From positions 2,591,131-2,655,130 of the forward strand of contig JAOSJT010000001.1 in the NCBI GenBank assembly GCA_027493955.1: a DNA stretch of 64,000 nucleotides. The letters are read 5' to 3'. Below are positions 2,028 to 55,734 of this stretch, one piece after another. Every line of letters starts with the position of its first letter. Within the stretch, counting starts at the first letter, position 1. Source of the DNA: Bacteroidia bacterium. GTDB taxonomy: Bacteria > Bacteroidota > Ignavibacteria > SZUA-365. The notes beneath the pieces were generated by a model that did no database searches, was not told where the DNA came from, and saw only the letters and a program-made list of their open reading frames with translations. Both the position numbers and the translations under genes were made by a program.

Positions 2028-2030
2028 GAG

Positions 2031-2225: not shown

Positions 2226-2227
2226 TC

Positions 2228-3031: not shown

Positions 3032-3036
3032 GCGCG

Positions 3037-3059
3037 ACCGCCGGCCACGCGCCGGCGGT
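3037..3059 (+). terminator. GC-rich hairpin after ccoP
   Basis: A 9-bp perfect stem (ACCGCCGGC / GCCGGCGGT) with a CACGC loop starts 6 bases after the ccoP stop codon. Only two T follow, so it may be a partial terminator or an mRNA-stabilising hairpin that sets different levels for the oxidase subunits and the downstream assembly genes. Confidence 0.55.
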
Positions 3060-3115
3060 TTCCGTATGAGACAACAGAATCCGTTACATACGCATCGAAA
3101 GGCCGGTCAGCACCT

Positions 3116-19461: not shown

Positions 19462-19870
19462 GGATGATATACTCCTATATTGAGTGAGTGACGACCATGC
19501 TGGGAAAGCACACTGCCCGTCGGGTTCCAGGCCAACCCGATTCAGACACGTTCATTTCAAAGAGGTGTCGCAGCGGAGACAATCTTTCTCCGGCTCGCGG
19601 TTCAAGGTATCCTCGGCATCAGACTGAGTATCACGCCATCATTCGCAACCATTTTGGGGGATAACGTCGTCCGTACGAACAGCCAGAATATGGAAATCGG
19701 ACGCACGTGTCGTGCTTTTTCTTCACACGTGAAATTACTACTCGTCACGTCAAGATCAAAATGGTCGCGGGTGAGAGTAAAAGCAACTCCTCGGTGCCCC
19801 TCCTTGGACCTTGGATTCTCATCGGATTACAATGCGAAGATCACGGCATGAAATACCGTACGTCGTACAA
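19462..19870. other. Intergenic region between giant genes 1 and 2
   Basis: About 400 bases that must hold the promoter of paralogue 1 at the left and the end of paralogue 2 at the right. I see no gene, no RNA and no clear promoter hexamers. GGAG lies 11 bases before the paralogue 1 ATG. Confidence 0.4.
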
Positions 19871-19898
19871 CAAAGGCCGCCCGATCGGGCGGCCTTTG
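19871..19898 (-). terminator. Terminator of giant T9SS gene 2
   Basis: This is the same perfect palindrome as at 15003-15030 (CAAAGGCCGCCC, GATC, then the complement), 26 bases past the stop at 19924. Its flanks are also nearly identical to those after paralogue 1, so it lies within the recent duplication or conversion tract. Confidence 0.85.
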
Positions 19899-19923
19899 AA
19901 TGAGTCGGGATGAACGTGGGTGC

Positions 19924-22900
19924 TTACTTCGACAGCACCATCTGTATCGTCTTGTTGTACTCGCCCGCAATCATGCGGCAGACGTAGGTGCCCGAAGGGA
20001 GCGCACTGGCATCGAAGCTGATCGTGTAGCGGCCTTGCGGCAGCACATCGTTGACCAGCTCGCCGACTTCCATGCCGAGACTGTTGTACACCACGAGGCG
20101 CACCGCACGCTCCTCGGCCACCGAGAAGCTCACGCTGGTCGCGGGATTGAACGGATTCGGGTAGTTCTGCTCGAGACCGAAAACGGTCGGCAACGCGTCG
20201 CCCGGCTTGCCCATCATGTACGACTGCGCAAGCGCGATATTGCCCGTGCTGTTCGTCGGATTCAGATCGAACACCGTCACCAGATTGTTGACCGGATCGG
20301 AGGCCGAGCTGGTGCCCATGATCGGATCTTCCCACTGACCCAGGGCTACCGCCTGACGCACGCCGTGCAACTGGTTACGGTCGGCTATCATCGCCGCTTC
20401 CTGATCGGCATACGGGAAGGTGATGTTCGCCGTCCACCAACCGCTGCCCGTGGTCGTGATCTGCCAGTAGCGCTTCACGTACAGCATGCGCGCAAGGTTC
20501 TGCGGCAACTGATACGGGTACACGCGAATGGTCATACCGCTGATCGAACCGCTCGTCACCTCCACCGAGGCGATCGGATTGCCCGTGCCGCTCGCGGTGA
20601 AGTTGTAGGTGTTGCCCGGGTTGAGTCCGTTCAGCGTCGCTTCCTCGAACTGCGTGCCGCTCTTCGTGCCGGAGTTCACCACGCGCAACTCCACGTCGAT
20701 GTTCAGCGGTTCGTTGGTCGCGATCAAACCGCTCGATGGCGGCGGGAAATCGTCGTTGAACAGAATACCGTAGAAGGTGATCTGCCCCGTGTGCAGACCC
20801 GGAGCCAGGCCGTTCGGATTGATGGTCAGCGTGAAGTCTGGAACTGCCGCGGACGCGGCGGGGGTGAAGTTGTACCCCTGCATCGTCGATTCCGGCGTCG
20901 CCTTCGTCAGCGTGATCCACGGGGTGTTCGTTTCCACATCCCAGAGGAAGTCGCCCCCGAAGCCGTAAATGTTCGTCATCGACGCAACCTGATACGTCCG
21001 GTTGATCAGTCCCGGCGCCTTATACGTGGCCGTGAACTGCAGTTTCCGCGAGCTGTTGTCAATGAAGGTGATCAAGGGATCGCCGGGGATGCCGAACCCA
21101 ATTTTCGGCGGCGGCGAGGGGTCGTCAGCACACGATGTCGTCTATCACCACCGCACCGGCACCGGCATTGCTCGTGACGCGGAAGCCGATGTAGTACATT
21201 CCCGCCTGATTCGGGGTATTGAAGTACGGATCCAGGCCGCCCGCAAGCTGCTTGGCCGTCATGAAGCCGGTGTTGGTGAAGTTCGCGAACGTGGCGAAGG
21301 TGGTCATCGAGCCCGGATCGGGGCTCATGCCATAGGCCACTTCCACGCGCTGCGGGGCGCCGCTGACGGATTTCATATTGAACGCTATCCGATAGCTGGC
21401 CTCGGCGAGCAAGGTCGCACCGGGAGTGAACACCCAGTCGTCGGCTGTCTGCGTGTCACCCGGATACTCGAGCGCATGCGTGCCGCCGCTGCCGACACCG
21501 TTGGCCACCGCCCAGGTGGCGGCACCGCCGGCGTTGTTCACCGACCAGTCGTAGTCGAGATAGCCCGGATCGTCGCTGAAATCCGGCGCAAGCATGCTGT
21601 TGAAATCCTCGCGTCCGTGAACTTTCTCATTGTCGATGCGTCGTACGTCAATGCCTGTGTTGTCCAGCGGCACCGCATCCAGAGGCCAGAACACTTTCGC
21701 GTACACCGGAACGCTCGCAGCGGGAAGAGCACCCGTCACCTTTTGGGTGAATGAAACGACGGTCTTGTCGCCACTCCACGCGGGATTGAAGGTCTGCTGC
21801 ACGCCGTCGAATTCACTTGCGGGTACGCTGCCTACCTTGTACGTGATGCTGATGCCGTTGGGATTGGCCAGACGGCCGTTATTCTCGAGAACGACATCCA
21901 CGGAATGTGTCGCGACGCCTTCCTTCCGCGTCCATTTTGTGTCTGCGTAGTTGAGTCGCACATCAGTAATTGCGACATCATAGAGAGGCGGCGGTTCGGG
22001 ATATTCGTCCGCTCCGATGCACGGATTCGGTCCTCGCTGATCGCCATCGAAGTCGTCGGTGATTCCGGGGAAAGAAACACCCGCGAGATAGCCGACGTCG
22101 GAATTGCAGTGCAGATCGGTCTCACTCGCGAAATACGGATCACCGTAGACCGAGTTCTGATGGAATCCGGATACGGCCGCCTGCAACGCAGGGAGGCTGG
22201 TGTAACTCGTGCCCTGCCAGTGGTAATAGGTCGTGCCACTCGTCCCGATGCGGTAGAACGCATTGTGGTCGAACAAACTGTAGTCCAACGCGGTATTGCT
22301 GTTCATCAGGTATTGAGCGTAGAACGTCCCGTTACCTTCTCGTACTATATAGTTGTTGGCGAACTTGTTGTCATACGCAGTGGTCTCACCGTAGCAATAG
22401 ATGCCGTAGACCGTGCTGGTGGTTTTCAGATACACCGAATTGTACACCACATCGGTAAAACGCGGATAGTTGACGTACAGTCCGTAACACGTGGACGTAC
22501 CGTTTGTCGCCCCCATGTTATTGTACACCTTTGCGCGGTTACTGCTCGAGGTGTAATAGTAGTTCGGACGGTAAATGTAGAACAGGTACGAAGCGGAGAA
22601 GCCATAGTTGTAACTGATCTCCGGTCCGTCATTCGGATAGTTCACGTAGTAGGCATATCCCGACGATGTCGTGAAGATACCGGAGCTTCTTTGAACCGAA
22701 CGGTTGCCTTTGACCATCAACTGACCGCCGTAGTTGAGATACACACCGGAATAATACCAGTCCGTCACCGTGTTGTTGATAAACTGATTTCCTCTGGCGG
22801 TGGTGTAATCCGTTGTTCCGGAGCCATTCCAGCGAATGCCGTAATACCCGCCGGTGATGGTGTTGTCCTGGATAAGATTGAAGTTGCCGTGATCACCCGA

Positions 22901-24301
22901 CGTCGAGTTTGATGTCGTACTCGAACCGAGAATGCCGATAAAATTGCTGCTGCTACTGCCATTATAGGCCTCGATCACGCAGTCCGTGATTTCATTGTAA
23001 TCGGCCGAATTGGTGAAAAGCACACCCCAACCGTAGCTGCTTCCCGTCGCCCGAATGGTCAGATTCCTGAACCGCACGTAGTCAGCGCCATTCAATGCGA
23101 CGACACGGTCGTTCGCATTCGGACAGCTATACTGGAGTATGCGCGTTGCGGCGTTGCCGGCGCCACCGTCGAAGGTGATGGTATTCGTGGAACTTGCGCC
23201 CGCTATCTCCGGAATCGTGATCGTCTCCGTGTACGTGCCCGAGGCGACGGTAAAGGTCACGGGCCCGCAGACGCCGGAAGAAATGAGATCATCCACCGCC
23301 GCGGTAAACGTGGCATAGTTGGGAGATACTCCTCCGATGGTATATGTACCGGATAATGCGGCTTTCACTATGACCGTTGCCGTGTCATTGTTATTGACCG
23401 TGTCCGGGACGCCATTCGGGTTTGTGGTCCAGGCGACGATGGTATACGGGACGCCTGCGAGGAAATTCCTGTTCCCGAGCGTCACGGATGTTTCGCGTGT
23501 GCTGACCGAGAGTGTATCCAGCAAGCCCGTCCAGCTGTAAGCGGTCTGCGGAGTGCCGTTGATACTCCAGTTGATTGTGGCCGACGTCACCTGATTCGTT
23601 CCGGAATTCTTGAGGGTCACCGAAACCGGATGTGTTCCTGCACAGAACGACGTCGGTGAATCAATCGAAGCGATACCGATGTCGTTCGGAACCGATGCGA
23701 CGGGGTCGTAGCTGATGCGGCCGCAGAATTGCCGTGGCCAGAAACTCCAAGTGTTGGGAACCGCTCCCCCCCAGGCCTGCGTGTTGACGCTCAGGTACGC
23801 GTCGGAAAAGACATAGGGCGTGGTCCCGCTGCGATACGACACGCCACCCGACACTGTCCGTATTGCGAAGCCCCAGCGGTCGCCCTGATTCATCCGCAGG
23901 TTGATATTGAAGGGAATCTCGATATCGGTTCCATACCCTACACCGGTGAACACCGCCTGCCCCAGACTGATCCAACCGGTGCTGTTGTAGCCGGTGCTCG
24001 AATTCGGGGTATTGATAAGACCTGTGGGATTGTAATAAATCTCCACCGTGTTCGTGCCTGCGGATCCCTGGGACCACAAGCGGTAGATCTGCACCGGTTG
24101 CAAGGCTGTGACCTCGAAACTGATGCCGGATGAGCCGTTATTTGCAGTTATTCCCATCGGTAGGATCAGACTCCCCTGGGCTTGGAGCGGCGCACTGTTG
24201 AACATGGTCAACCCCAACAGTGTGACAAACGCGCACAGGCCTGCCAAAGCCATTTTGCGCTTCGAGGACCTGTTCCCCGCATTTTGTCGTGTGTTTTGCA
24301 T
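19924..24301 (-). pseudogene. Giant T9SS-exported beta-helix protein, paralogue 2, frameshifted
   Basis: Read from the ATG at 24301, the protein has a signal peptide, an N-terminal module shared with paralogue 3 (ITANNGSSGISFEV), the CARDB-like domain, beta-helix, second CARDB-like and anchor-J-like domains, then stops at 21125 just after VVIDDIV. The rest (BACON-like domain, conserved domain and T9SS tag) continues in another frame from 21075 to 19924. Compared with paralogue 1, bases 21119-21133 are 2 nucleotides short (GGGGTCGTCAGCACACG against GGGATTGTCGTCCAGCACG). Further on, 20838 has lost a C and 20860-20864 has gained a G, which scrambles seven or eight residues (AASAAVP for RPRQFQD) and then restores the frame. 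The N-terminal part as it stands lacks the export signal. Either a young pseudogene or an assembly error between near-identical copies. Confidence 0.8.
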
Positions 24302-25105
24302 AGTTATTCCTCGCAGAATGCTGAGACATGTGGATTCTGACCGAGTGCGCGATAATGTTACGGAATCAATTTCCGGCATTTCCGAACACAGACCAGGAGC
24401 GAAGCCAGTGAGTGTTTTTCACTGGGCGTGTTTTTCACTTCTAACGCAACCTACATGACTTTTTCTTCGTTTCAAAATCCTGCTTCATGCCACTTCCCAA
24501 CGTCACGGTCTGCAGGATGGCGGCGATACATCAGCGAAGCAGCATCTCACAGATCTTCCCGCATGCTTCATCAAAGGTCATGGACGCATATGAACCACGC
24601 AGAAGGACCGTCCTGGGACATCCCCGGAAAAGGCGCTTCGCTGCGTCAACCTGCCCGGACACCGGGACGATCAACCTCCACACAACTGTGGAAATAGTAC
24701 TTGCACAGAAACGCGCCCTTGAAACAAAGGCCGCCCTTCTGGAAATGGTAGCATCAGCCCCATACTCTACAAGAGAAACTCGCAGCGCATGAAGACACGG
24801 ATCGGTACTTGTGCGCATCGAGGAAAACGGACACGGCGCTTCTCCGCCTGAGGCGGAAGCGCCGGGTTCGCACTGTTTCTATCACCGAAACTCATCCTGT
24901 GGCTCAGCCTGAGGCTTATCAGCCTGACGGCATTTTTTTCTCCCTCGTTACGCTCGACATGCACCGTCAGCCTTCGGCTGCGAATCGAAGATCAGCCGCG
25001 GTGGAACGATCGCTACACTCACCGATTCCGCTATATCCTCGCATTTCACACATCGTTCCGCCTTCGCTCTCGTCCACTGACGCTTATGCCATACGCAACT
25101 ATAAT
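24302..25105. other. Intergenic region upstream of giant gene 2
   Basis: About 800 bases with short scattered frames but no convincing gene. At 24837-24865 GGCGCTTCTCCGCC and GGCGGAAGCGCC form an imperfect hairpin; nearby GCTCAGCCTGAGGC forms a second small one. These look like REP-type intergenic elements. Confidence 0.5.
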
Positions 25106-25255
25106 GCTTCGGCGGGCAGGCCCGCCTACGCTCGCTTGTTTCAACGGCTGTGCCATTCTCGCCTGATGCTTCGGCGGGCAGGCCCGCCTGCGCTCGCTTG
25201 TATCAACGGCTGTGCCATTCTCGCCTGATGCTTCGGCGGGCAGGCCCGCCTACGC
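25106..25255. repeat. 62-bp tandem repeat with GC-rich hairpins
   Basis: A 62-base unit (CAACGGCTGTGCCATTCTCG ... GCTTCGGCGGGCAGGCCCGCC) occurs as one partial copy (25106-25140), one full copy (25141-25202) and most of a third (25203-25255). Each unit contains GGCGGGC-AG-GCCCGCC, a 7-bp hairpin. A diverged single copy lies at 14945-14985, in the equivalent position beyond paralogue 1. Confidence 0.85.
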
Positions 25256-25314
25256 TCAGGGACCGGCCCTTCGACTTCGTTCAGGGACCGGTGCGAAAAT
25301 CGTTCGTCGTAAAT

Positions 25315-25342
25315 CAAAGGCCGCCCTTTCGGGCGGCCTTTG
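25315..25342 (-). terminator. Terminator of giant T9SS gene 3
   Basis: A 12-bp perfect stem (CAAAGGCCGCCC / GGGCGGCCTTTG) with a 4-base TTTC loop lies 26 bases beyond the stop codon at 25368. It is the same element as after paralogues 1 and 2, with only the loop changed. Confidence 0.85.
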
Positions 25343-25367
25343 ATTGAGTCGGGATCAACGTGGGCGC

Positions 25368-28300
25368 TTACTTCGACAGCACCATCTGTATCGTCTTATT
25401 GTAGTCGCCGGCTATCATGCGGCAGACGTATGTGCCCGAGGGGAGGTCGCGGGCGTCGAAGCTGATGGTATAGCGGCCTTGCGGCAGCACATCGTTGACC
25501 AGCTCGCCGACTTCCATGCCGAGACTGTTGTACACCACGAGGCGCACCGCACGCTCCTCGGCCACCGTGAAGCTCACGCTGGTCGAGGGATTGAACGGAT
25601 TCGGGTAGTTCTGCTCGAGTCCGAAAACCGTCGGCAGCGCATCGCCCGGCTTGCCCATCATGTACGACTGCGCAAGCGCGATATTACCCGTGCTGTTCGT
25701 CGGATTCAGATCGAACACCGTCACCAGATTGTTACCCGGATCGGACGCCGAACTGGTACCCATGATCGGATCTTCCCACTGACCCAGGGCCACAGCCTGA
25801 CGCACGCCGTGCAATTGGTTGCGGTCGGCAATCATCACAGCTTCCTGATCCGCATACGGGAAGGTGATGTTCGCAGTCCACCAGCCGCCGCCCGTGGTCG
25901 TGATCTGCCAGTAGCGCTTCACGTACAGCATGCGCGCAAGGTTCTGCGGCAACTGATACGGATACACGCGAATGGTCATACCCGCGATCGAACCGCTCGT
26001 CACCTCCACCGTGGCGATCGGATTGCCCGTGCCGGTGGCGGTGAAGTTGTAGGTGTTGCCGGAGGACAGCGACGAAAGCGTCGCTTCCTCGTACTGCGTG
26101 CCGCTCTTCGTGCCGGAGTTCACCACGCGCAGCTCCACGTCGATGTTCAGCGGTTCATTGGTCGCGATCAAACCGCTCGACGGCGGCGGGAAATCGTCGT
26201 TGAACAGAATACCGTAGAAGGTGATCTGTCCCACGTGCAGACCCGGAGCCAGGCCGTTCGGATTGATGGTCAGCGTAAAGTCCTGGAACTGCCGCGGACG
26301 CGGCGGGGTGAAGTTGTACCCCTGCATCGTCGGTTCCGGCGTCGCCTTCGTCAGCGTGATCCACGGGGTGTTCGTCTCCACATCCCAGAGGAAGTCACCA
26401 TTGGCACCGTAGATATTGGTGAACGATGCCACCTCGTACGTCTTATTGATCAGTCCGGGTACTTTATAGGTTGCCGTGAACTGGAGCTTTTTCGCCGGAT
26501 CGTTGATGAAGGTGCTCACCGGGGACCCGGGGTTGCCGAAAGCGATTTTCGGTGGAGGCGAAGGATTGTCGTCCAGCACGATGTCGTCAATCACCACAGC
26601 ACCCGCGCCGGCGTTGCTCGTGACGCGGAAGCCGATGAAGTACACACCCGGCTGATTCGGGGTATTGAAGTACGGATCCAGACCGCCCGCGATCTGCTTG
26701 GCGGTCATGAAGCCGGTGTTGGTGAAATTCGCGAAAGTTGCGAAGGTAGTCATCGCACCCGGATCCGGGCTCATGCCATAGGCGACTTCCACACGCTGCG
26801 GAGCGCCGCTGACGGATTTCATGTTGAAAGCTATGCGATAGCTCGATCCGCCCTGGAGGTCCGCTCCGGGCGTAAAGAACCAATCGTCGGCGACCTGCGT
26901 GTCGCCGGGATATTCCACAGCGTTGCTGCCTGCGGTACCCACACCGTTCGCAACCGACCATACGGCGGGACCAGCACTGTTGTACGCCGTCCAATTGTAA
27001 TCCAGGAATCCGGGATCGTCACTGAATTCCGGCGCAAGCATGCTGTCGAAGTTCTCGCGGCCGTGAATTTTCGTATTGTCAATGCGACGCGTGTCGTTTC
27101 CGGTATTGTTCGCCACGTCTCCATCCGCAGCCCAGAACACCTTGACGTAGACCGTCTGTCCGGCGCTGGGCGCGAGCCCTGTCACCTTCTGATTGAAGCT
27201 CACGGCGGCTTTACGGTTGTTCCAGGTCGGATTGAAGGTCTGCTGCACACCGTCGAACTCGCTTGTCGGCATGCTACCCATTTTGTAGGTGATGCTGATG
27301 CCATTCGGTGCGGCATCGCGACCAGTGCTTTCGAGCACGACGTCCACAGAATGCGCTGCGCTGCCTTCCATGCGTGACCACTTCATGTCCGCGTAATTGA
27401 GACGCACGTCGTTCACCGCCACATCGTACATCGGCGGTGGTTCGGGGTATTCATCGGCCCCGATGCAGGGATTCGGACCGCGCTGGTCTCCGTCAAAATC
27501 GTCGGTAATACCGGGGAAAGCGATACCTGCCTGATATCCCACATCCGAACTGCTGTGCAGATCCGTCGCGCTGGCAAACCAGGGATCACCGTAAACCGAA
27601 TTCTGGTTGAATCCTGTTGACACCGCCTGCATGGCCGCAAGACTGGTATAACTCGTTCCTTCCCAGTAGTATGATGTCGTTCCGGTGCCGATACGGTAGA
27701 AAGCGTTGTGATCGAACAGACTGTACGACACCGCCGAGCCCGACGTCATGTGATACTGCGCGTAGAACGTGCCACTGCCTTCGAGCACAACCCAGTTATT
27801 GGCGTATTTATTGTCGAGGGCCGATGCGATTCCGTAAACATAGAGACCGTAGGTGGTACCCGTGGTTTTGCAGAAAATCGAGTTGTACACGCAGTCGGTG
27901 TAGCTCGGGTAGCTCACGTACAGACCGTAGTTCGTGGACGTACCGTTCGTCGCACCCATGTTATTGTACACACGTGCGCGATTGTTGGTCGAGGCGTAGG
28001 CATTGTTCGGGCGGTACACATAGAGCGGTCCGTACGCCGCAAAGCCATAGTTGTAGCTGATCTCGGGACCGTCATTCGGATAGTAAATGTAGTACGCATA
28101 ACCCGAGCTGGTCGTATACGTCCCCGTCGTACGTTGAATGGACCGATTACGCGTCACAGTGATCGCGCCGCTGTAATACATGTACATTCCGTAGTAGTAC
28201 CAGTCCGTGATCGTATTGTTGACGAACTGATTTCCGGAGGAAATGGTGTAGTCGGTAGAGCCGGAGCCGTTCCAGCGGATGCCGTAATACCCGCCGATGA

Positions 28301-29729
28301 TGTTGTTGTCTTCGAGCAGGTTATTGCTGCCGTGATCGCCGTACGTACTGTACGACGTTGTCGAACTGGCCAGCACAGCGATGTGATCCGTGCTCGAGCC
28401 GCCACTGTACACCTCGATGTTACAGTTGGTGATTTCGTTGTTATCGGCGGAATTCGTGAACAGAACGCCATACCCGTAGGTTGTTCCAGTAGCACGAATG
28501 GTCAGATTTCTGATTCGCACATAATCGGCGCCATCGAGAAGCAGCACACGATTATATTGACTGGGAGTGCTGTACTGAAGAATTCTGGTTGACGCATTGC
28601 CGGCGCCGCCATCGATGGTGATGGTGTTCGTGGAGCTGGCGCCGGGGATTTCCGGAATGGTGACGGTTTCCGTGTATGTGCCGGCGGCGACATTGAAGGT
28701 CACAGGACCACACACGCCGCTCGCTGCCAGATCGGCCATGGCGTCGGTGAAGTTTGCGTAATTCGGTGAGGGACCACCGATGGTGAATGTTCCGGACAGA
28801 GCCGCCTTGACCGTCACGCGGGAAGTATCATTCGCATTACTGGTATCCGGCACCCCGTTGGGGTTGGTCGTGTAGGCGACAATGGTATACGGTACGCCGG
28901 TTGCGAACGTCCTCGAACCCAAATTCACCTGTGTTTCGCGGGACTGAACGGTGAGCGTATCGAGCAGACCAGTCCAACTGTGCGCTGTCTGCGGAGTGCC
29001 GTTGATGCTCCAGTTGATGGTGGCCGATGTCACCTGATTGGTACCAGAGTTCCGCAAGGTCACAATAACGGGATGCGAACCCGCACAGAAGGCGTTCGGC
29101 GAATCGATCGAGGAAATGCCGACATCATTCGGACCTGTGGAAACCGGGTCATAGACGATACGTCCGCAGAACTGACGCGGCCAGTTCGAGAATGTGGTCG
29201 GCACTGCGCCGCCCCACCCTTCCGTGTTCACGCTCAGGTAGGTGTCAGCGATGATGTAGGGAGCGACACCGCTTCGGTACGAGACACCACCGGAAATCGT
29301 TTTAATAGCGAAACCCCATCTGTCGCCCTGATTCATTCTCAGGTTGATGTTGAAGGGAATTTCGATGTCGGTGCCATACCCGACACCGGTAAACACCGCC
29401 TGACCAAGACTGATCCATCCGGTGGAATTGTAGCCGGAACTCGAGTTGGGAGTGTTGATGAGACCGGTGGGATTGTAAAAAATCTCGACCGTGTTGGTCC
29501 CTGCGCTGCCTTGCGACCACAAGCGGTAAATCTGCACCGGTCGAAGCGCAGTCACTTCAAAGCAGATTCCCGACGAGCCGTTGTTGGCGGTCAGTCCCAT
29601 GGGGAGGGTCATGGATCCCTGCGCATGCAAGGGAACATGCAGGAGCATACTGCCGAGGAGAAGCAGCATGACAACCCCGGTGGACCGAAATGCGCGGGAA
29701 CAGGCCCGGGAAGTAACACATTTCTGCAT
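25368..29729 (-). CDS. Giant T9SS-exported beta-helix protein, paralogue 3
   Basis: Starting at the ATG at 29729, the protein is 1453 residues. It has a signal peptide ending near VPLHAQG, then a module shared with paralogue 2 (LTANNGSSGICFEV ... FCGRIVYDP), a CARDB-like domain (FCAGSHPVIVTLRNSGTNQ), the beta-helix opening with FTIGGPSPNYANFTDAMADL, the second CARDB-like domain (YDVAVNDVRLNYADMKWSR), the anchor-J-like domain, the BACON-like domain (ITLTKATPEPTMQG), the LYVKRYWQITTTG domain and the T9SS tag (EQNYPNPFNPSTSVSFTV). This is the intact counterpart of paralogue 2. A longer frame adds 11 residues upstream, but the ATG at 29729 is favoured because Met-Gln-Lys or Met-Gln-Asn starts both 2 and 3. 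The function is unknown beyond surface export. Confidence 0.9.
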   Translation of the reverse strand: MQKCVTSRACSRAFRSTGVVMLLLLGSMLLHVPLHAQGSMTLPMGLTANNGSSGICFEVTALRPVQIYRLWSQGSAGTNTVEIFYNPTGLINTPNSSSGYNSTGWISLGQAVFTGVGYGTDIEIPFNINLRMNQGDRWGFAIKTISGGVSYRSGVAPYIIADTYLSVNTEGWGGAVPTTFSNWPRQFCGRIVYDPVSTGPNDVGISSIDSPNAFCAGSHPVIVTLRNSGTNQVTSATINWSINGTPQTAHSWTGLLDTLTVQSRETQVNLGSRTFATGVPYTIVAYTTNPNGVPDTSNANDTSRVTVKAALSGTFTIGGPSPNYANFTDAMADLAASGVCGPVTFNVAAGTYTETVTIPEIPGASSTNTITIDGGAGNASTRILQYSTPSQYNRVLLLDGADYVRIRNLTIRATGTTYGYGVLFTNSADNNEITNCNIEVYSGGSSTDHIAVLASSTTSYSTYGDHGSNNLLEDNNIIGGYYGIRWNGSGSTDYTISSGNQFVNNTITDWYYYGMYMYYSGAITVTRNRSIQRTTGTYTTSSGYAYYIYYPNDGPEISYNYGFAAYGPLYVYRPNNAYASTNNRARVYNNMGATNGTSTNYGLYVSYPSYTDCVYNSIFCKTTGTTYGLYVYGIASALDNKYANNWVVLEGSGTFYAQYHMTSGSAVSYSLFDHNAFYRIGTGTTSYYWEGTSYTSLAAMQAVSTGFNQNSVYGDPWFASATDLHSSSDVGYQAGIAFPGITDDFDGDQRGPNPCIGADEYPEPPPMYDVAVNDVRLNYADMKWSRMEGSAAHSVDVVLESTGRDAAPNGISITYKMGSMPTSEFDGVQQTFNPTWNNRKAAVSFNQKVTGLAPSAGQTVYVKVFWAADGDVANNTGNDTRRIDNTKIHGRENFDSMLAPEFSDDPGFLDYNWTAYNSAGPAVWSVANGVGTAGSNAVEYPGDTQVADDWFFTPGADLQGGSSYRIAFNMKSVSGAPQRVEVAYGMSPDPGAMTTFATFANFTNTGFMTAKQIAGGLDPYFNTPNQPGVYFIGFRVTSNAGAGAVVIDDIVLDDNPSPPPKIAFGNPGSPVSTFINDPAKKLQFTATYKVPGLINKTYEVASFTNIYGANGDFLWDVETNTPWITLTKATPEPTMQGYNFTPPRPRQFQDFTLTINPNGLAPGLHVGQITFYGILFNDDFPPPSSGLIATNEPLNIDVELRVVNSGTKSGTQYEEATLSSLSSGNTYNFTATGTGNPIATVEVTSGSIAGMTIRVYPYQLPQNLARMLYVKRYWQITTTGGGWWTANITFPYADQEAVMIADRNQLHGVRQAVALGQWEDPIMGTSSASDPGNNLVTVFDLNPTNSTGNIALAQSYMMGKPGDALPTVFGLEQNYPNPFNPSTSVSFTVAEERAVRLVVYNSLGMEVGELVNDVLPQGRYTISFDARDLPSGTYVCRMIAGDYNKTIQMVLSK

Positions 29730-30634
29730 GGTAATACCTCTAATATTGAGAAAATGCGACATCCTCGTGTAACACGACCGAAGAATGTCAGCTGGTGAAT
29801 GAGGCGTTGTTATACAGCGGAAGGGGACATTGCGCAGGGAGTCCGTACGTGCGAACTATCGTAAGCATCAATGTCGCTCGTTTTACCGCCGACGGCGAAG
29901 AATCGGGTCCGATGCGGCGACGCCACTGACGGCGAAGGAAGTCTCGCGACATTCCAGCGCCTGTCGGCTTTACGGCATGCGAGGGTTTCGTCTTTTTTGG
30001 GTAGCTACTTTCAGTCAGGCGAAACATGTGTGCGAACTGAATCATTCAAAACAACATCTTTGAGATTCTCTGTCTACGAACGCGCTGTGCTCGAAACCAC
30101 AGACTGGGATGACAATCGGAGATGTGCAAAAGTTACACGGTCATCCTTTCTGTCGCGTGAGGGTGTGTGGTCGAAAGCAACGAATGAAAGGAATTGTCCT
30201 GGTCCGTTTGGCTGTGATCGGAGTTGTGGGGAATTGTCCGGTCCGGATTCGTCGCAGCGACGGAATTTCAGGCGAAGATCACCCGCATCAGGACTATCGT
30301 GAAATTAGGATAAATGTACATTCTACGCAACATGTCCACCGGTGTACGGTTTATTCTGAAAAAGGTTACGAAAGCTGCTCCGGAGATACTCCCACCGTCG
30401 CCCTGCACGCGGCGCTGCTGTGCCGCTCGTCCTGCTGCCGTTCCGATTGTCGGGACTGCGTGTCGGTACCCCTGATTATTCCGGCGCACTCGGGCCTCTC
30501 GCTGTGGCAATCTCTTTTTCGCGTGAAGAATCCGCCCCCGTATTCTGCCGCGATACTCTGCGGCTGCCCTGATGCTTCCGCGCTGATGTTATTGAAGAAT
30601 GTCTGCGCTTCGATCAGAATCCGCTTACCCAAAA
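29730..30634. other. Intergenic region between giant genes 3 and 4
   Basis: About 900 bases. A 189-residue plus-strand frame (30109-30678) runs through it and over the terminator of gene 4; its composition and lack of a ribosome site argue against coding. GAATTGTC followed by GGTCCG occurs twice about 35 bases apart near 30195 and 30232. I find nothing else. Confidence 0.45.
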
Positions 30635-30671
30635 CGCAACGAGGCCATCCACAGTGGATGGCCTCGTTGCG
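30635..30671 (-). terminator. Terminator of giant T9SS gene 4
   Basis: CGCAACGAGGCCATCCAC and its exact complement are separated by a single A, giving a very strong stem 16 bases beyond the stop at 30688. Its sequence is unrelated to the hairpin shared by paralogues 1-3, so gene 4 is not part of their recent 3' homogenisation. Confidence 0.9.
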
Positions 30672-30687
30672 GAGATAGATCCGAATG

Positions 30688-33600
30688 TTACTTGGAAAGG
30701 ATCATTTGAACGGAGCCCACGAAATCCCCCGCGACCATGCGGCAGGTATAGGTTCCTGTGGGCAATGTCAAAGCGTTGAAATCGACCGTGTACTGGCCGG
30801 ATGGCAGTACGTCATTCAGCAGTTCCGCGACCTCCACACCGAGATTGTTGTAGACGGTCAGCCGGACCTGCCGCTCGTCGGCAACCGTAAACCGGATGCT
30901 CGTCGAAGGATTGAAAGGATTGGGGAAGTTCTGCTCGAGCGCGAAAGCCGTCGGCGCGGCGTCACCCGGCTTCCCCATCATGTACGACTGCGCGAGCACG
31001 ATATTGCCCGTGCTGTTCGTCGGATTCAAATCGAACACCTTCACGATATTCATCCCCGGATCGGAAGTAGAGCTGGTACCGACGATGGGATCTTCCCACT
31101 GGCCCAGCGCCACTGCCTGACGCACACCGTGAAGCTGATTGCGATCTGCGACCATCACCGCTTCCTGATCGGAGTAGGGGAAGGTGATGTTTGCAGTCCA
31201 CCAGCCGCTGCCCGTCGTTGTGATCTGCCAGTAGCGCTTCACATAGAGCATGCGCGCGAGGTTTTGCGGAAGTTGGTAGGGATATGCTCGTATCGTCATA
31301 CCGGTGACGTCACCACTCGTCACTTCGACAGTAGCAATCGGATTGCCGGTGTCGGGATCCTTGAAATCGTAGGTGTTCCCCGAAGTGAGTCCGCTTACAG
31401 TGTGCTCCTCGAATTGTGAACCACTCTTCGTCCCGGCGTTCACCACGCGGAGTTCCACGTCAATGGTCAGCGGTTCGTTGGTAGCGATCAATCCACTGGA
31501 GGGTGGCGGGAAGTCGTCGTTGAAGAGAATGCCGTAAAAGGTTATCTGTCCCACATGGAGACCCGGCGCCAAGCCGTTCGGGTTCACGGTGAGTGTGAAA
31601 TCCTGGAACTGACGCGGACGTGGCGGTGAAAAATTGTACCCCTGCGCCGTCGCTTCGGGGGTGGCCTTGGTCAGCTTGATCCATGAGGTGTTGGACTCCA
31701 CATCCCAGAGGAAGTCTCCGTTTACGCCATAGATGTCCGTAGAAGAGACGACCTGATAGGTCTTCGTGATCAAACCGGGTGCCTTGTAGTTTGCCTGAAT
31801 CGCGATTTTGCTCTCAGGGCTATCCATAAAGGTCTCGAGCGGATCTCCGGGATTTCCGAAGGCGATTTTCGGAGGAGGTGAGGGATTGTCGTCAAGGACA
31901 ATGTCGTCTATCACGAGCGCCCCTGCACCGGCGTTGCTGATGACTCTGAATCCGATAAAATACGCTCCGGTCGTCGCCGGGGTATTGAAGTACGGATCCA
32001 TTCCACCGGCAAGCTGCTTTGCGGACAGGAAGTCGGTGTTCGTGAAGTTGGAGAATGTCGCGAACGTCGTCATTGAACCCGGATCGGGACTCGAACCGTA
32101 TGCAACCTCCAGCATCTGGGGTGCACCGGTTACGGACTTGACGACGAAGGCAATTCGGTAACTCGCCGCAGCAAGCAATTCCACGGGAGGTGTGAACAGC
32201 CAGTCATCCGCGGTCTGGGTGTCTCCGGCGTACTCGATACCATTGGTGGCACCGACGCCGACACCATTCGCCACCACCCAGGTTGTTCCTCCGTTAGGAT
32301 CGGTCACCTTCCAATCGTAATCCAGATAGCCGGGGTCGTCGCTGAAATCAGGCGCGAGCATGGCGTTGAAATTTTCCCGACCGTGAATTTTTCCATTATC
32401 CACGGTGCGGGTGTCGCTGCCGCTGTTGTTTGCGGGATCGGCGTCCAACGCCCAGAATACTCTGGCGTGCACCGTAAGCCCTGCGGTCGGCACCAGGCCG
32501 CTCACCTTCTGGTTAAAGCGCACCACCGCCTTTCCATTGCTCCAGGACGGGCTGAAGGTCTGTTGTACACCGTCGAATTCGCTTGTGGGCATGCTTCCCA
32601 CCTTATAGGTGATGCTGATGCCGCTCGGATTTGTCTCCCTGCCGTTATTCTCGAGAACAAGATCAACGGAATGAGCTGCTGGATCCTCGCCGCGTGTCCA
32701 TTTGCCGTCGGCGTAATTCAGTCGGACTTTCGCAATGCCGATTTCGTACATCGGCGGCGGCTCGGGGAATTCGTCGGCTCCGATGCAGGGATTCGCGAGG
32801 CGCGTGTCACCATCAAAATCGTCGGTCACACCCGCGAAATACAGACCGGCCTGATACGCAGCATCTGAGCTGCTGTGCAGATCCGTATCGCTGGTGAAAT
32901 ACGGATCACCGTACACAGAGTTTTGATGCCGTGAAGGCACCGCATTCTGTAAGGCGGTCAGTCCACTGTAAATCGTGGCATTCCAACGGAAAGACGGCGT
33001 GACGTTCGCGTCGCACCAGAAGAGGTTGTGGTCGAACGCCGTCATGTCGCTCGAGTACTGATTGTAAATCGCGTAGAAGGTTCCGCTGCCCTTTTTTGCG
33101 ATGATGTTGTTGAGATACTTGTTGTCGTAATTGGTTGTCGCCCCGTAATTGTAAATACCGTAGCCGGTGCTGCTGCCGTGCATGTACAAAGTGTTATAGA
33201 CGACATCGGTGTACCGGGGGTAGGACACATACAGGCCATAGTTCGTACTCGAGGACGTCGCCACGAGCATATTGTTCGCGACAAGACCACGGACGTTCGA
33301 ACTCGATCGCGCGTAGTTGTGATACATGGAGCGCAGCGGATTGTAGTAGACCTGAATGTCGTTGCCGATCATCTGCGCGCCTTCGTTGGCGTAATAGGAG
33401 TAGATACCGTAGCTGCTGGATGTTGAGACACGGGGGCGAATATAATTGTAGTTGACCTGCAATGCGGGTTGGTAATAGAAATACATTCCGTAGTTGTTGA
33501 AGTCGGTGACTTCATTGTTAATGAAGCGATTGTTGACGCTCAGCGTCGTCGAAGACGATGATGAGCCGTTGAAGCGTACTCCGTAGTAGCCACCACCTTT

Positions 33601-34200
33601 GATGCGGCATCCTTCGACCAGCGTATGATTCGCCCAGTTTCCGTAGGCGGAATACGATGTGCCGTTGCCCGCATGAACCGCGATACAGTAGTAGTTCGTG
33701 GAGGTAGTGGAAACCTCGATGCTGCAGTCAATCAGGTGGTTGTAGTTGGCCTGACTTGTGAACAATACACCAAACCCGTACGTGGAACCGGTCGCGCGAA
33801 TTGTCAGATTCTTGAAACGGAAATAGTCCGCACCATTGAGCTTCAACACGTAATCCCCCTGGCTTGCAGTGTTGTACTGCAGGATTCGGGTCGCGGCGTT
33901 TCCTGCGCCGCCGTCAAACGTGATGGTGTTCGTGGAACTGGCTCCGGTAATCGCAGGAATGGAGACCTGCTGTGTGTAGGTTCCCTGCTGAACATTGAAG
34001 GTGACCGGTCCCGAGACACCGTTTGCGACAAGCGCCGTCACGGCGTCGTTGAAATTCGAATAGGTCCCGCTCGGTCCGATGGTGTAGACACCGTTGAGCT
34101 GAGCATGCACGCTGGGTGAAAGAAGTCCTAAGCCGAGGAGCAGGACGCCCAGGAGAAGGAAGCGTAATCCACGAGAACGGGTAAGAGAGATTTTCATCAT
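30688..34200 (-). CDS. T9SS-exported beta-helix protein, paralogue 4 (short form)
   Basis: About 1170 residues from the ATG at 34200 (a second ATG at 34197 is better spaced from AGGAG; a longer frame to 34392 has no support). After a signal peptide ending PSVHAQ the beta-helix starts at once (YTIGPSGTYSNFNDAVTALV), so the N-terminal module and first CARDB-like domain of paralogues 1-3 are absent. The rest follows the shared plan: beta-helix with repeated short Asn/Tyr turns, a second CARDB-like domain, an anchor-J-like domain (VIDDIVLDDNPSPPPK), a BACON-like domain, the LYVKRYWQITTTG domain and a T9SS tag (EQNFPNPFNPSTSIRFTV). It is the most diverged member and perhaps closest to the ancestral layout. 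Confidence 0.9.
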   Translation of the reverse strand: MMKISLTRSRGLRFLLLGVLLLGLGLLSPSVHAQLNGVYTIGPSGTYSNFNDAVTALVANGVSGPVTFNVQQGTYTQQVSIPAITGASSTNTITFDGGAGNAATRILQYNTASQGDYVLKLNGADYFRFKNLTIRATGSTYGFGVLFTSQANYNHLIDCSIEVSTTSTNYYCIAVHAGNGTSYSAYGNWANHTLVEGCRIKGGGYYGVRFNGSSSSSTTLSVNNRFINNEVTDFNNYGMYFYYQPALQVNYNYIRPRVSTSSSYGIYSYYANEGAQMIGNDIQVYYNPLRSMYHNYARSSSNVRGLVANNMLVATSSSTNYGLYVSYPRYTDVVYNTLYMHGSSTGYGIYNYGATTNYDNKYLNNIIAKKGSGTFYAIYNQYSSDMTAFDHNLFWCDANVTPSFRWNATIYSGLTALQNAVPSRHQNSVYGDPYFTSDTDLHSSSDAAYQAGLYFAGVTDDFDGDTRLANPCIGADEFPEPPPMYEIGIAKVRLNYADGKWTRGEDPAAHSVDLVLENNGRETNPSGISITYKVGSMPTSEFDGVQQTFSPSWSNGKAVVRFNQKVSGLVPTAGLTVHARVFWALDADPANNSGSDTRTVDNGKIHGRENFNAMLAPDFSDDPGYLDYDWKVTDPNGGTTWVVANGVGVGATNGIEYAGDTQTADDWLFTPPVELLAAASYRIAFVVKSVTGAPQMLEVAYGSSPDPGSMTTFATFSNFTNTDFLSAKQLAGGMDPYFNTPATTGAYFIGFRVISNAGAGALVIDDIVLDDNPSPPPKIAFGNPGDPLETFMDSPESKIAIQANYKAPGLITKTYQVVSSTDIYGVNGDFLWDVESNTSWIKLTKATPEATAQGYNFSPPRPRQFQDFTLTVNPNGLAPGLHVGQITFYGILFNDDFPPPSSGLIATNEPLTIDVELRVVNAGTKSGSQFEEHTVSGLTSGNTYDFKDPDTGNPIATVEVTSGDVTGMTIRAYPYQLPQNLARMLYVKRYWQITTTGSGWWTANITFPYSDQEAVMVADRNQLHGVRQAVALGQWEDPIVGTSSTSDPGMNIVKVFDLNPTNSTGNIVLAQSYMMGKPGDAAPTAFALEQNFPNPFNPSTSIRFTVADERQVRLTVYNNLGVEVAELLNDVLPSGQYTVDFNALTLPTGTYTCRMVAGDFVGSVQMILSK

Positions 34201-34665
34201 GAGGCTCCTGTATGTGATGTACTCTGTGGTCGTTTTATTGGAATCTGTTTCTGGTGAAGATCCGTCTGCATGAGCATCAGGGCTCCTGGCCTGAACCGAG
34301 TCGCTGTCCGGCAGGTCATAGTGAATATAAAGCACATCACCGCTGCATGCAAGGGAAAATAGAGAATTCTTTTCACAGTGATTATTTGCCACGTTATTTC
34401 TGCCCGTTGACTTGACGATTCGCCCATTTTCATTGATTTTAACACCATTTTCATGAGATTATTTTTCACACTGAATGTTTTGTGGGCCATGAGCCGGCAG
34501 CTGACGGGTGAACACGAGGGATTTCAGGTCCTTTGGTCCATGATGGTGGTGACCGTAACTCGGGGTAATTGCAGAATTCAGCCGGGCTTGGCTTCTTATC
34601 AAACTCGTCGTCTATTGCGAGTGTAAGGTTCCGTGGAATATCGGATTCACTTATTCACGGGAGAT
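34201..34665. other. Upstream region of giant gene 4
   Basis: AT-rich stretch that should contain the promoter of paralogue 4, read leftward. No gene and no clear consensus hexamers are visible. Confidence 0.35.
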
Positions 34666-49494: not shown

Positions 49495-49506
49495 ATAATT
49501 GATGAT
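49477..49506. promoter_or_regulatory. Operator-like inverted repeat over the promoter and start of the Cys-rich gene
   Basis: ATCATCAA (49477-49484) and TTGATGAT (49499-49506) are exact inverted repeats with 14 AT-rich bases between them. The element covers the -10 region and the candidate start codons, an ideal place for a repressor. No regulator gene adjoins it. Confidence 0.55.
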
Positions 49507-49912
49507 GTATGCACAAGACATAGTGCGCAGGAGTGTGAGCATCGGAATGACGCTGCTGCTTCTCGTATGCTGTCTCCGTGCCGCACCGCTTTCCTGCAGG
49601 CAGGCTCGTTGCGCATGCGCATGCTGCGAGGAAGTGCAGCCAGCGGAATCTCCCTGCTGTTGCGATGGCCACGCCGACGCGGAAGCGGGGCGATCGAATG
49701 AAGGCTGTGACACAAACAGTGCCCAAGCTGCCTCGGGATGCTCTCATTGTGCCTGCATGCATCAACCACCGCAATCGGCTCCCCCTGACACCTATAGCGT
49801 CGACGAACAGACCGTCGTTTTCGGAAGTGTCTCCTTTCACACACCGTCGACCATAGAAACACCGTGTGAACCTATCCTACCCCCTCCAATACCGTTGGTT
49901 CTGCGAACATAG
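49505..49912 (+). CDS. Secreted cysteine-rich small protein, unknown function
   Basis: About 135 residues. A signal-peptide-like N-terminus (RRSVSIGMTLLLLVCCLRAAPLSC) is followed by dense cysteines: CACACCEE, SPCCCDGHAD, EGCDT and GCSHCACMHQ, then a Pro-rich tail (ILPPPIPLVLRT). Cysteine with neighbouring histidine and acid residues suggests metal binding outside the cytosol. The start is unclear: ATG at 49502 or 49505 lies inside the palindrome with no ribosome site, while ATG at 49547 has AGGAG 13 bases upstream but would shorten the signal peptide. It ends 90 bases before the multihaem cytochrome and may share its transcript. I do not recognise a family. Confidence 0.65.
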   Translation: MYAQDIVRRSVSIGMTLLLLVCCLRAAPLSCRQARCACACCEEVQPAESPCCCDGHADAEAGRSNEGCDTNSAQAASGCSHCACMHQPPQSAPPDTYSVDEQTVVFGSVSFHTPSTIETPCEPILPPPIPLVLRT

Positions 49913-50002
49913 ACGTTTCTCGCAGTTTCATCAACGTGCCAACAACGGCACCAGGTTTTCAACAATAAATTGCACCTCAACCCAATCTCTTTTGGAGGTT
50001 CC

Positions 50003-51982
50003 ATGCGTAATGTTACCGCTACCCTGTGCGTAGCACTCTGTGCGGTCCTGATGGTCGCCAACGTGGCCCAAGCACAGACCGTAACCCCGCCGAAGGCGCG
50101 CATCACGGTGATGGGAGTTTCAGCGGAAATGCTGAAGCAGAACATCCCCGGGATGGACAAGCCGTCCAACGGTCTCCCCAACGTCGCCAAGGGCGATAAA
50201 GTGTATCTGAAAGCCGGCGGAGTCATATCCCTCAATTCCGGCGCAACCAAATGGGCCACCGCGAACTTTACGTTCACGGAGAAACCCGCCGCTTCCAACG
50301 CGATGTTCGAAAAAATTGACGACATCACCTACTTCTTCGTCACCGATGCGGAAGGCACCTATCGCATCGAGATGATAAGCCAGGACGATGCCAATGTGCT
50401 CGACACCGCCACCGTGGTAGTGAACGTCGCGAAATACGTCGGTATCGGCGGTATCGTGGGTTCAGGCGCCACCCCGCCGGAGTGCCGCGTGTGCCATGCC
50501 GGTATCGCAACCACATGGGAAGGCACCGGACACTCCCAGGCGCTCATGGTCATCGAAACCAACAGTCACTTCGCTTCCTATTGCCTCCCCTGCCATACCA
50601 CCGGCTCACCCAATACCGACGCAGAAGGCGACGGTTGGGCGCATCGCGCACGTGTTCTCGGCTGGCAGTTCCCCGCCGTCATCCAGGTCGGTAACTGGGA
50701 CGAAATCAAGACGAACTTCCCCGAGCTCGCCAAGATGGCACATGTGCAGTGCGAAAGTTGTCATGGTCCCGGTAGTGCGCATAACGCGGTCAAGACCGAC
50801 AGCAAAACCGTCGTCAGCTACACGGCCTTCCAGTGCCGCCAGTGCCACGACGCACCGGAGCACCATCCCGAATTCCAGGAATACGACAATGCCGGCCATG
50901 GCAACTCCATGGTCAACGGTCTGAATACCGAGTACACCAATCGCGGCAGCAAGACCAATACCTACAGCGACTGCGCCCGCTGCCACACAGCGAACGGCCA
51001 TGTTGAGGTACACATTAACGGCGCCCCGAGCACCAGCGCGCCATACGCGAATCCCTCGCCCGTGACCTGCATCGCCTGCCATGACCCGCATGCGAACACC
51101 AATCCGGCACAGCTTCGCAAGAGTATTGACGAATCCTGCACCGATTGCCACAGCATCCGTCCCAGCAGCCATAGTGGTCTGCACACCTCGCATCAGGGTC
51201 CGATGATCAAGGGCGAGGGCGGCATGGAACTGCCCGGCTACACCTATCGCAAATCCGCCCACAGCGCCATCGACACCCGCTGCGTGCAGTGTCACATGGC
51301 CACACCGGACGAAGCCTACAAGAACAAGCTCGGCGGACATACCTTCAAGGTCATGTTCGACAACGATACCCCGGATGACCACTCGGACGATGTGATCAAC
51401 CAGTCGGGCTGTATCGATTGCCACAGCAGCGGTGTCGAACTGCAGACCATGCAGGACACTCAGGCGGAGATCAAGCTGTTGCTGAATGAACTCAAGTCCT
51501 ATCTCAGACTGCGCTCCGACGGCAACCCGCTGTACCAGATGGATACCACGCTCACAAGCACAGAGCGCGACATCCACTACAACTGGTATTTCGTCAACAA
51601 CGATCTGAGCTTCGGTGTACACAACTTCCTGTATGCCAAGGATCTGCTTACAGCCTCGATCGCCGTCGCCAAGACCCTTGGCGTTGAGCGCATTGATGGT
51701 CCGAAGGACTTCGCTCTCGAGCAGAACTACCCGAACCCCTTCAATCCCACCACAGCCATCCGTTTCAGCATCCCGACTGCGCAGAACGTGAACGTCACGA
51801 TTTACGACGCTTCCGGCAAGCTGATTTACACGCTCGTCAACGGCCAGTATCAGGCCGGCACCTACAGCGTGCAGTGGAACGGGCACCGGGGCGAAGGCAT
51901 TTCCGTCCAGAGCGGTGTGTACTTCTACCGCATCGTGGCCGGCAACTACACCGCCACCAAGAAGATGATGCTCGTCAAATAA
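50003..51982 (+). CDS. Nonahaem cytochrome c with C-terminal T9SS sorting domain
   Basis: The 659-residue protein has a signal peptide (ANVAQAQ cleavage, about residue 25), a beta-rich N-terminal domain (about 26-150), and nine CXXCH haem sites between residues 161 and 474: CRVCH, CLPCH, CESCH, CRQCH, CARCH, CIACH, CTDCH, CVQCH and CIDCH. Many further His could be distal ligands. The arrangement resembles the cytochrome c554/NrfA-like multihaem family. After a helical region the last 85 residues form a T9SS type A domain (EQNYPNPFNPTTAIRFSI). GGAGG lies 6 bases before the ATG at 50003, which fixes the start. The tag implies a surface-attached electron carrier or oxidoreductase; the redox partner is unknown. 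Confidence 0.92.
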   Translation: MRNVTATLCVALCAVLMVANVAQAQTVTPPKARITVMGVSAEMLKQNIPGMDKPSNGLPNVAKGDKVYLKAGGVISLNSGATKWATANFTFTEKPAASNAMFEKIDDITYFFVTDAEGTYRIEMISQDDANVLDTATVVVNVAKYVGIGGIVGSGATPPECRVCHAGIATTWEGTGHSQALMVIETNSHFASYCLPCHTTGSPNTDAEGDGWAHRARVLGWQFPAVIQVGNWDEIKTNFPELAKMAHVQCESCHGPGSAHNAVKTDSKTVVSYTAFQCRQCHDAPEHHPEFQEYDNAGHGNSMVNGLNTEYTNRGSKTNTYSDCARCHTANGHVEVHINGAPSTSAPYANPSPVTCIACHDPHANTNPAQLRKSIDESCTDCHSIRPSSHSGLHTSHQGPMIKGEGGMELPGYTYRKSAHSAIDTRCVQCHMATPDEAYKNKLGGHTFKVMFDNDTPDDHSDDVINQSGCIDCHSSGVELQTMQDTQAEIKLLLNELKSYLRLRSDGNPLYQMDTTLTSTERDIHYNWYFVNNDLSFGVHNFLYAKDLLTASIAVAKTLGVERIDGPKDFALEQNYPNPFNPTTAIRFSIPTAQNVNVTIYDASGKLIYTLVNGQYQAGTYSVQWNGHRGEGISVQSGVYFYRIVAGNYTATKKMMLVK

Positions 51983-52005: not shown

Positions 52006-52037
52006 ACGGGAGGCCGCAAGGCCTCCCGTCTCTTTTT
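52006..52037 (+). terminator. Terminator of the nonahaem cytochrome gene
   Basis: ACGGGAGGCC and GGCCTCCCGT form a 10-bp perfect stem with a GCAA tetraloop, followed by CTCTTTTT, 23 bases after the stop codon. It is a textbook intrinsic terminator. Confidence 0.95.
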
Positions 52038-52059: not shown

Positions 52060-52424
52060 GGGGGAGAGGAAAGAGCGGAGAGCGGAGAGCGAAGAGCTGA
52101 GAGTATGGCCGTGCAGGTTGGCTCGAATTGTACAAGCGCCTCACTTCGGGAGGAGAGCGGAGAGCAGAGAGCACGCTCGTGCGGGATCACTCGAATCGTT
52201 GAAGAACTTCACATCAGAAGGAGAACGGAGAGCAGAAAGCACGCTCGTGCGGGAAAGCCCTAATCGTGCAAACGCCTCACTCTGTGAATGGGAAGTGCTG
52301 TTTTATTGCAGAACCAGGAAGCGGATATCGTTTTCTTTGCATACAGCCGGAACGCAATGACGTGCTCTCTGCTCCCTGCGCTCCTTTGCTCCGCTCTCTA
52401 TGCTCTCCGCTCCGCGCTCTCAAC
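52060..52424. repeat. AGAGC-type element with a 68-bp tandem repeat
   Basis: Three imperfect copies of a 68-base unit (GGAGAGCAGAGAGCACGCTC, GTGCGGG, then TCGAAT or TAATCG, then TTCAC or CTCAC) are aligned at GTGC positions 52111, 52179 and 52247. They are followed at 52363-52424 by an inverted arm GTGCTCTCTGCTCCCTGCGC. It is a larger version of the elements flanking ybaK and fills most of the gap between the cytochrome and SRPBCC genes. Confidence 0.7.
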
Positions 52425-55224: not shown

Positions 55225-55734
55225 AGCTACGGTTCGCGAAGGAGAGAAACAATGTACGATTGATCCGACTCAGGCGGAACGATTTACGAGGTACGATAAA
55301 CGGTAAAGTTAAACGTTAAAAGTTAAAGGTTAAACGAATTGAAAAGGGTGAAGGGTGAAGGGTAAAGGGTAAAGGGTAAAGGGAAAAGAGGGTAAAGGGA
55401 AAAGAGGGTAAAGGGTACCGGGTGAAGGGACAAGAGTGGAGAGCAAAGAGCTGCGAGTCCCGAGCCCGAAGGGCGACACTTCCTCAAACTCCATACGTGA
55501 GCATGGGGGCCTCGCGCGGCCAGCACCCCGATCTCAAGCCCGAAGGGCGACACTGGAATGGTAAAGGGTGAAGAGCTAAGAGTAAAGGGGCAGGAGCGAA
55601 AGCTCACACTGAAGATGACGACACCAGGAGAGGTAAAAGGTGAGGAGTGAAGGGATTCAACGCGCGATTGTACGAACGGAAATGCTCCTCTCGGCATCGA
55701 TATCGCGGTTTTGTGCAAGGCAAAAATCATCCAC
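55225..55734. repeat. GGGTRAA heptad array and paired GCCCGAAGGGCGACACT motifs
   Basis: 55345-55430 repeats GGGTGAA and GGGTAAA in near-perfect 7-base steps, with GGGAAAAGA variants. GCCCGAAGGGCGACACT occurs twice, at 55464-55480 and 55538-55554, each with a small CCC-GAA-GGG hairpin. Further heptad-like AAAGGGTGAAGAG follows at 55560-55600. No gene is visible between cutA and the TPR gene. Confidence 0.7.

Follow-up and report, generated by a model that had tools for sequence, protein, structure and literature searches.

The window, i.e. the whole stretch of 64,000 nucleotides analysed here, carries at 50003-51982 of the forward strand an open reading frame encoding a protein of 659 amino acids, with an ATG at 50003 and a stop codon at 51980-51982. 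The start codon was placed there, and not at the upstream TTG (49970), because of the GGAGG site at 49994-49998. As the frame is kept over its whole length in the homologue family, it is considered to be a real gene, and a chance, wrong-frame or antisense origin was ruled out by this conservation and by the GC content at the codon positions. The deduced protein contains nine CXXCH motifs, whereas, when its residues were shuffled 5000 times, 0.02 motif was obtained on average and never more than one. In the predicted mature protein, the 18 cysteines out of 18 are located inside these motifs. Reading of the N-terminal sequence gave a predicted Sec cleavage site (AQA-Q) without lipobox. The features of the gene and of its product are collected in Table 1.

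Table 1. Features of the nonahaem cytochrome gene and of the encoded protein (positions in the window)
Feature	Position	Strand	Basis
Ribosome-binding site GGAGG	49994-49998	+	sequence
CDS of T9SS-tagged, OcwA-type nonahaem c-type cytochrome, 659 aa	50003-51982	+	ORF, domain families, homologues
Predicted Sec signal peptide, residues 1-24 (...NVAQA-QT)	50003-50074	+	sequence, inference
N-terminal domain, probably beta-sandwich/PKD-like, residues 25-150	50075-50452	+	conserved columns; weak PKD profile match
Haem core and helix bundle, residues 156-558, similar to OcwA (PDB 6i5b)	50468-51676	+	
Haem motif 1, CRVCH	50483-50497	+	
Haem motif 2, CLPCH; open, putative active-site haem	50582-50596	+	analogy with OcwA (PMC6703420)
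Haem motif 3, CESCH	50750-50764	+	
Haem motif 4, CRQCH	50834-50848	+	
His-His pair 287/288, matching OcwA HH281/282 over open haem 2 in the alignment	50861-50866	+	
Haem motif 5, CARCH; second putative open haem	50972-50986	+	analogy with OcwA
Haem motif 6, CIACH	51068-51082	+	
Haem motif 7, CTDCH	51137-51151	+	
His394, family-invariant; H-T in the alignment where OcwA has HH380/381 at haem 5	51182-51184	+	
Haem motif 8, CVQCH, then near-invariant Met432	51281-51295	+	
Haem motif 9, CIDCH	51410-51424	+	
C-terminal helices, residues 483-558, with GVHN (538-541), as in OcwA/NrfA helix bundle	51449-51676	+	
T9SS type A C-terminal sorting domain, residues 572-659 (LEQNYPNPFNP...KMMLVK)	51716-51979	+	TIGR04183
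Terminator-like hairpin 3' of the stop codon: 10 bp stem, T-rich tail	52006-52029	+	

Directly upstream of the cytochrome gene, the window contains an ORF (49499-49912, +) for a secreted-looking, cysteine-rich protein of 137 residues. Domain-family profile searches gave no family match for this ORF, which is also absent beside the gene of the closest homologue, and it was rejected on these two grounds as a partner of the cytochrome. Intergenic tandem repeats built on 7-base units (AGAGCGG, AAAGGGT) are found at 52063-52254 and 55293-55429, and the genome contains similar low-complexity stretches in further intergenic regions (L190, L196). On the reverse strand, the region 15055-34392 is occupied by tandem paralogues of 1.1-1.5 thousand residues which read as T9SS surface proteins. 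Their near-identical C-terminal halves, associated with very long antisense open frames, suggest a recent duplication or gene conversion.

The haem core of the protein was compared with proteins of known structure. With the single sequence as query, the best PDB match was 6i5b (4.6e-15), followed by the multihaem cytochrome 6qvm. A profile of 39 homologues matched 6i5b at 2.5e-34 and 6qvm at 3.1e-26, and then the octahaem nitrite reductase and NrfA (~3e-13), MccA (5e-10) and c554 (2e-6); MtrC, OmcA and OmcS-type chains were not among the PDB matches of this profile. The entry 6i5b, labelled 'uncharacterized protein' in the PDB table, is taken here to be OcwA of Thermincola potens, and its His-His spacing agrees with the published OcwA numbering at one constant offset. 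OcwA possesses nine haems, the haems 1-4 being c554-like and the haems 5-9 NrfA-like. Two of these haems are open, with a His-His pair above each of them, and three C-terminal helices form a bundle (PMC6703420). In the sequence alignment, the core regions of 6i5b are matched in the same order by the window protein. The distal histidines 177, 260, 299, 363, 394, 446 and 540 are conserved in 96-100% of 46 homologues; with nine haems and seven conserved distal histidines, two sites should therefore be open, the assignment of each ligand to its haem being inferred. The first of the OcwA-type HH pairs is present (287/288), its second histidine being kept in 74% of the family, and the second pair is replaced by H394-T395, the coordination itself not being readable from the sequence. 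Upstream of the core, the residues G57, G118, Y120 and G147 of the N-terminal domain are conserved in the family. An AlphaFold model computed from three sequences reached a mean pLDDT of 37, too poor for use, and this low-confidence model also contains the helices at residues 483-558. Judged from its sequence, the haem part of the window protein is a relative of OcwA, a nonahaem surface terminal reductase.

The main rival to an OcwA-type terminal reductase is a nitrite or hydroxylamine reductase on the surface, i.e. a nitrogen-oxyanion enzyme of the NrfA or octahaem type devoted to respiration or detoxification and not to conduction towards a mineral or an electrode. For the C-terminal half of the protein, matches with NrfA, with octahaem nitrite reductases and with MccA are indeed obtained at 1e-13 to 1e-7, and a slow reduction of nitrite and hydroxylamine is described for OcwA (PMC6703420). 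Such an enzyme is nevertheless unlikely because OcwA is by far a better match than the nitrite reductases, because the NrfA-type CXXCK haem is absent, all 18 cysteines of the mature protein being in CXXCH motifs, and because a clear and regular NrfHA pair is already present in the genome (PF02335 at 8.4e-174 with a NapC/NirT protein). Furthermore, soluble nitrite needs only periplasmic enzymes.

The distribution of the OcwA-type protein was then considered. A first homologue scan with the full-length query yielded 80 loci, most of which share the sorting domain only, and the protein devoid of its sorting domain was used as query in the later searches. Homologues were found by this means in 25 of the 41 genomes of the relatives set. 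In the phylum, family matches were detected in 58 genomes out of 395, 56 of these 58 belonging to the same class, and the count of 58 includes some shorter six-haem proteins which cover the NrfA-like half only and of which several are lipoproteins. Nearly all the full-length members end in a T9SS domain; TIGR04183 was matched by each of the 39 aligned homologues, most of them found with queries lacking the sorting domain. The mean column identity of the family alignment is 28% and the haem motifs are invariant or nearly so. In Pfam and NCBIfam, no model spans the whole nonahaem protein. With respect to the family models and the literature searched, the T9SS-tagged OcwA-type architecture is an undescribed and widespread family.

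Two kinds of variants were encountered in the homologue searches. Proteins with five or six haems, some of them lipoproteins, resemble the NrfA-like half only (L133:8558-9763, +; also L100, L101 and L103-L106). As the L133 protein lies within a porin-cytochrome cluster, the NrfA-half fold may also serve as a lipoprotein end piece. Long variants of the nonahaem T9SS family, of 900-980 residues, are found at L159, L160, L161, L162, L170 and L059, and some of them adjoin a second family member of ~520 residues (G201:C8, G377:C22).

The C-terminal domain of the window protein matches TIGR04183 with an E value of 2.8e-13 and 49.7 bits, the cut-off being 23, and Pfam Por_Secre_tail at 7.4e-9. Profile searches of the 5.24 Mb genome, assembled in one contig, revealed full-length SprA (1.5e-297) and PorU (3.9e-299), a PorV/PorQ-family protein near PorU (2.8e-40) and some 36 other sorting-domain stretches. 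The CcmF, CcmE and CcmC-like genes stand together in this genome. No GldM was matched with TIGR03517 or PF12081, neither search having a valid positive control, and in this class the motor of the T9SS may have diverged beyond the reach of the current models. The initial annotation of the locus had described nine CXXCH motifs and a C-terminal T9SS domain in one polypeptide, both of which are confirmed with exact coordinates and strand, and it had named a lack of T9SS core genes in the genome as a refutation of its reading and proposed a search for cytochrome maturation genes; the refuting result was not obtained, T9SS core genes other than GldM being present, and maturation genes were found. 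Its proposal that the folded holoprotein is exported to the surface is supported as a prediction by the cargo tag, SprA, PorU, the PorV-family protein and the Ccm genes: the protein is tagged as T9SS cargo and its haems should be attached in the periplasm, so that it would be exported in a folded, haem-loaded form.

This predicted localisation on the cell surface has to be weighed against a cytochrome working in the periplasm, in which the sorting domain would not lead to export, either because the haem-loaded protein is not accepted or because the T9SS is incomplete. The lack of a GldM match with the two models is compatible with such a situation, as is the fact that, in the literature searched, no report of a multihaem holoprotein exported by the T9SS was found. 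However, the strong, full-length SprA and PorU and the numerous other sorting domains of the genome argue against it, and a tag conserved in 39 homologues out of 39 is not expected if it has no function. A periplasmic location is thus considered as quite improbable. A second T9SS-tagged multihaem cytochrome is encoded in the same genome at G000:C1:3255209-3256804 (L194:5210-6805, +). It possesses eight CXXCH motifs, c554-like and MtrC-like domains, and a type A sorting domain just above the cut-off. Of the multihaem genes of this genome that were inspected, this one and the nonahaem one are alone in bearing a T9SS tag.

T9SS cargo may be released as well as anchored. With its many haems, the exported protein could serve several cells in common as an electron store or an extracellular matrix component, in the manner of a capacitor or a wire, instead of acting as a terminal reductase. 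The conserved OcwA-like core with the invariant His394 at a presumed open haem argues instead for a reaction site; moreover, the protein has nine haems only and no similarity to the polymer-forming OmcS-type cytochromes, which makes this alternative very improbable.

A conduit-like cluster is located at G000:C1:1195636-1198836 of the same genome. It encodes a porin-like protein of 427 residues, a cytochrome with 11 haems and a 5-haem lipoprotein in which CxxxxCH motifs of the Geobacter type occur. The porin was called from its position and its signal peptide, together with a match in Pfam which is weak (1.9e-4) and below the cut-off, and its profile found nothing in the PDB. Porin-cytochrome conduits are reported in Ignavibacteria (PMC7399161). 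The gene order porin, 11-14-haem cytochrome, 5-8-haem lipoprotein is conserved across the class. In the genome under study, the nonahaem gene is 1.4 Mb away from the conduit cluster, and a direct linkage with conduit genes was observed in two relatives: in G022 (L218), the nonahaem gene is followed on the same strand by the porin and by a 14-haem gene, and in G012 (L085/L118) it adjoins the gene of a lipoprotein 50% identical to the 5-haem lipoprotein of the cluster described above. In G038 and G029, the conduit, a cluster of a 17/18-haem cytochrome plus cytochrome b, and the nonahaem gene are found within about 15 kb. Among the 395 genomes of the phylum, the porin and the cytochrome family are each present in 58, both occurring together in 54 and each one alone in 4. 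For the listed genomes of the class, the corresponding numbers are 53 with both, 3 with the cytochrome only, 4 with the porin only and 19 with neither (Fisher 1e-11, phylogeny not corrected for); the co-occurrence is weaker than this raw p value because it largely follows the phylogeny at the family level.

The further claim of the initial annotation, that the T9SS cytochrome enables extracellular electron transfer without any porin-cytochrome conduit, is hardly credible: a few genomes such as G282 do possess the cytochrome family with no match for this porin, but the conduit cluster of the genome itself, the porin in 54 of the 58 cytochrome genomes and the two direct linkages argue against it, and a surface protein alone provides no electron path through the outer membrane. 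G282 (L161) harbours a clear long nonahaem T9SS homologue and its conduit porin was not found at 1e-6; a version without conduit, or with a different one, should be sought first in this genome.

As candidates for the oxidation of quinol, the studied genome encodes a 13-haem cytochrome carrying a b561-type domain, and also a protein of the NapC/NirT type. A cbb3-type oxidase operon, immediately preceded by an alternative complex III-like cluster, was also noticed (window 42-4537, +, and G000:C1:2581500-2587200, L190); it includes a fused CcoNO-like protein and CcoP-like and CcoG-like proteins, and two further such clusters are located elsewhere in the genome (L189, L191). From these clusters, it is deduced that the organism probably also respires oxygen.

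The reading that we retain, with a probability of about 0.6, is that the OcwA-type nonahaem cytochrome is a surface terminal reductase, placed outside the outer membrane by the T9SS and fed by the conduit. According to its sequence signals, the protein would be exported by the Sec pathway and its signal peptide cleaved. The Ccm system, whose genes are present, would attach the nine haems in the periplasm, and the folded holoprotein, recognised via its type A sorting domain, would cross through SprA, the tag and the genes being observed and the steps deduced from them. PorU would then process the holoprotein, which should stay on or near the surface. Electrons from the quinone pool would arrive via the conduit made of the porin, the 11-haem cytochrome and the 5-haem lipoprotein, a flow suggested by the genes and their co-occurrence, and by homology with OcwA they would leave at one or two open haems to a mineral, an electrode, a shuttle or an oxyanion. 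Extended to the whole class, this would be a mixed electron export, in which a conduit across the outer membrane is combined with a T9SS-exported, folded nine-haem OcwA-type reductase as surface end piece; we give even odds to this generalisation.

The cargo usually associated with the T9SS consists of enzymes, adhesins and motility proteins. If the multihaem cytochrome family is its cargo, haem-loaded cytochromes would be a new class of T9SS cargo, the system would be tied to respiration, and the family would offer a direct test of the export of cofactor-loaded, folded proteins. OcwA-type reductases would be extended from Gram-positive bacteria to bacteria with an outer membrane and would represent a solution shared by Gram-positive and Gram-negative bacteria. 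Taken separately, conduits, T9SS cargo and OcwA-type reductases have all been described before, and it is their combination which was not met in the literature searched: no paper there joins multihaem cytochromes with the T9SS, most subscription papers and bioRxiv lying outside the search, and the available text of the Melioribacter, Caldithrix, Labilibaculum, bioanode and sludge genome papers does not report it. If the class corresponds to Ignavibacteria and relatives, the family would supply a surface reductase for these bacteria, which have turned up many times on anodes and in settings amended with Fe(III) (PMC7399161, PMC11495043). Searches for surface cytochromes based only on a lipobox or on similarity to MtrC will miss this family.

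In comparison with known systems, the window protein shares with OcwA the nine haems, the c554-like then NrfA-like order, the CE-CHGPG motif (here CESCHGPG), the aligned GxHN motif (here GVHN), the HH pair at the haem-2 pocket and the predicted C-terminal helix bundle. It differs by its extra N-terminal beta domain and its T9SS sorting domain, and by an H-T instead of an H-H at the second pocket; OcwA comes from a Gram-positive bacterium without outer membrane and has no T9SS domain. With the NrfA, octahaem nitrite reductase and MccA superfamily, it has in common the haem spacing, the distal ligands and the predicted helix bundle of its C-terminal half, but it has no CXXCK active-site haem and it carries nine haems and a surface tag. 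Unlike the decahaem lipoproteins MtrC and OmcA, which do not appear among its PDB matches, it has nine haems and no lipobox. Like T9SS type A cargo, it combines a Sec signal peptide with a sorting domain above the curated cut-off in a genome encoding SprA, PorU and a PorV-family protein, whereas its passenger is a multihaem c-type cytochrome, for which no precedent as T9SS cargo was found in the literature searched. Finally, the family is accompanied by a cluster comparable to OmbB-OmaB-OmcB of Geobacter and MtrABC of Shewanella, in which a porin-like gene stands with the genes of a cytochrome with 11-14 haems and of a lipoprotein with 5-8 haems. In contrast to these conduits, the porin has no relative in the PDB and the terminal surface cytochrome would be a separate T9SS protein, which would replace the conduit lipoprotein or be added to it.
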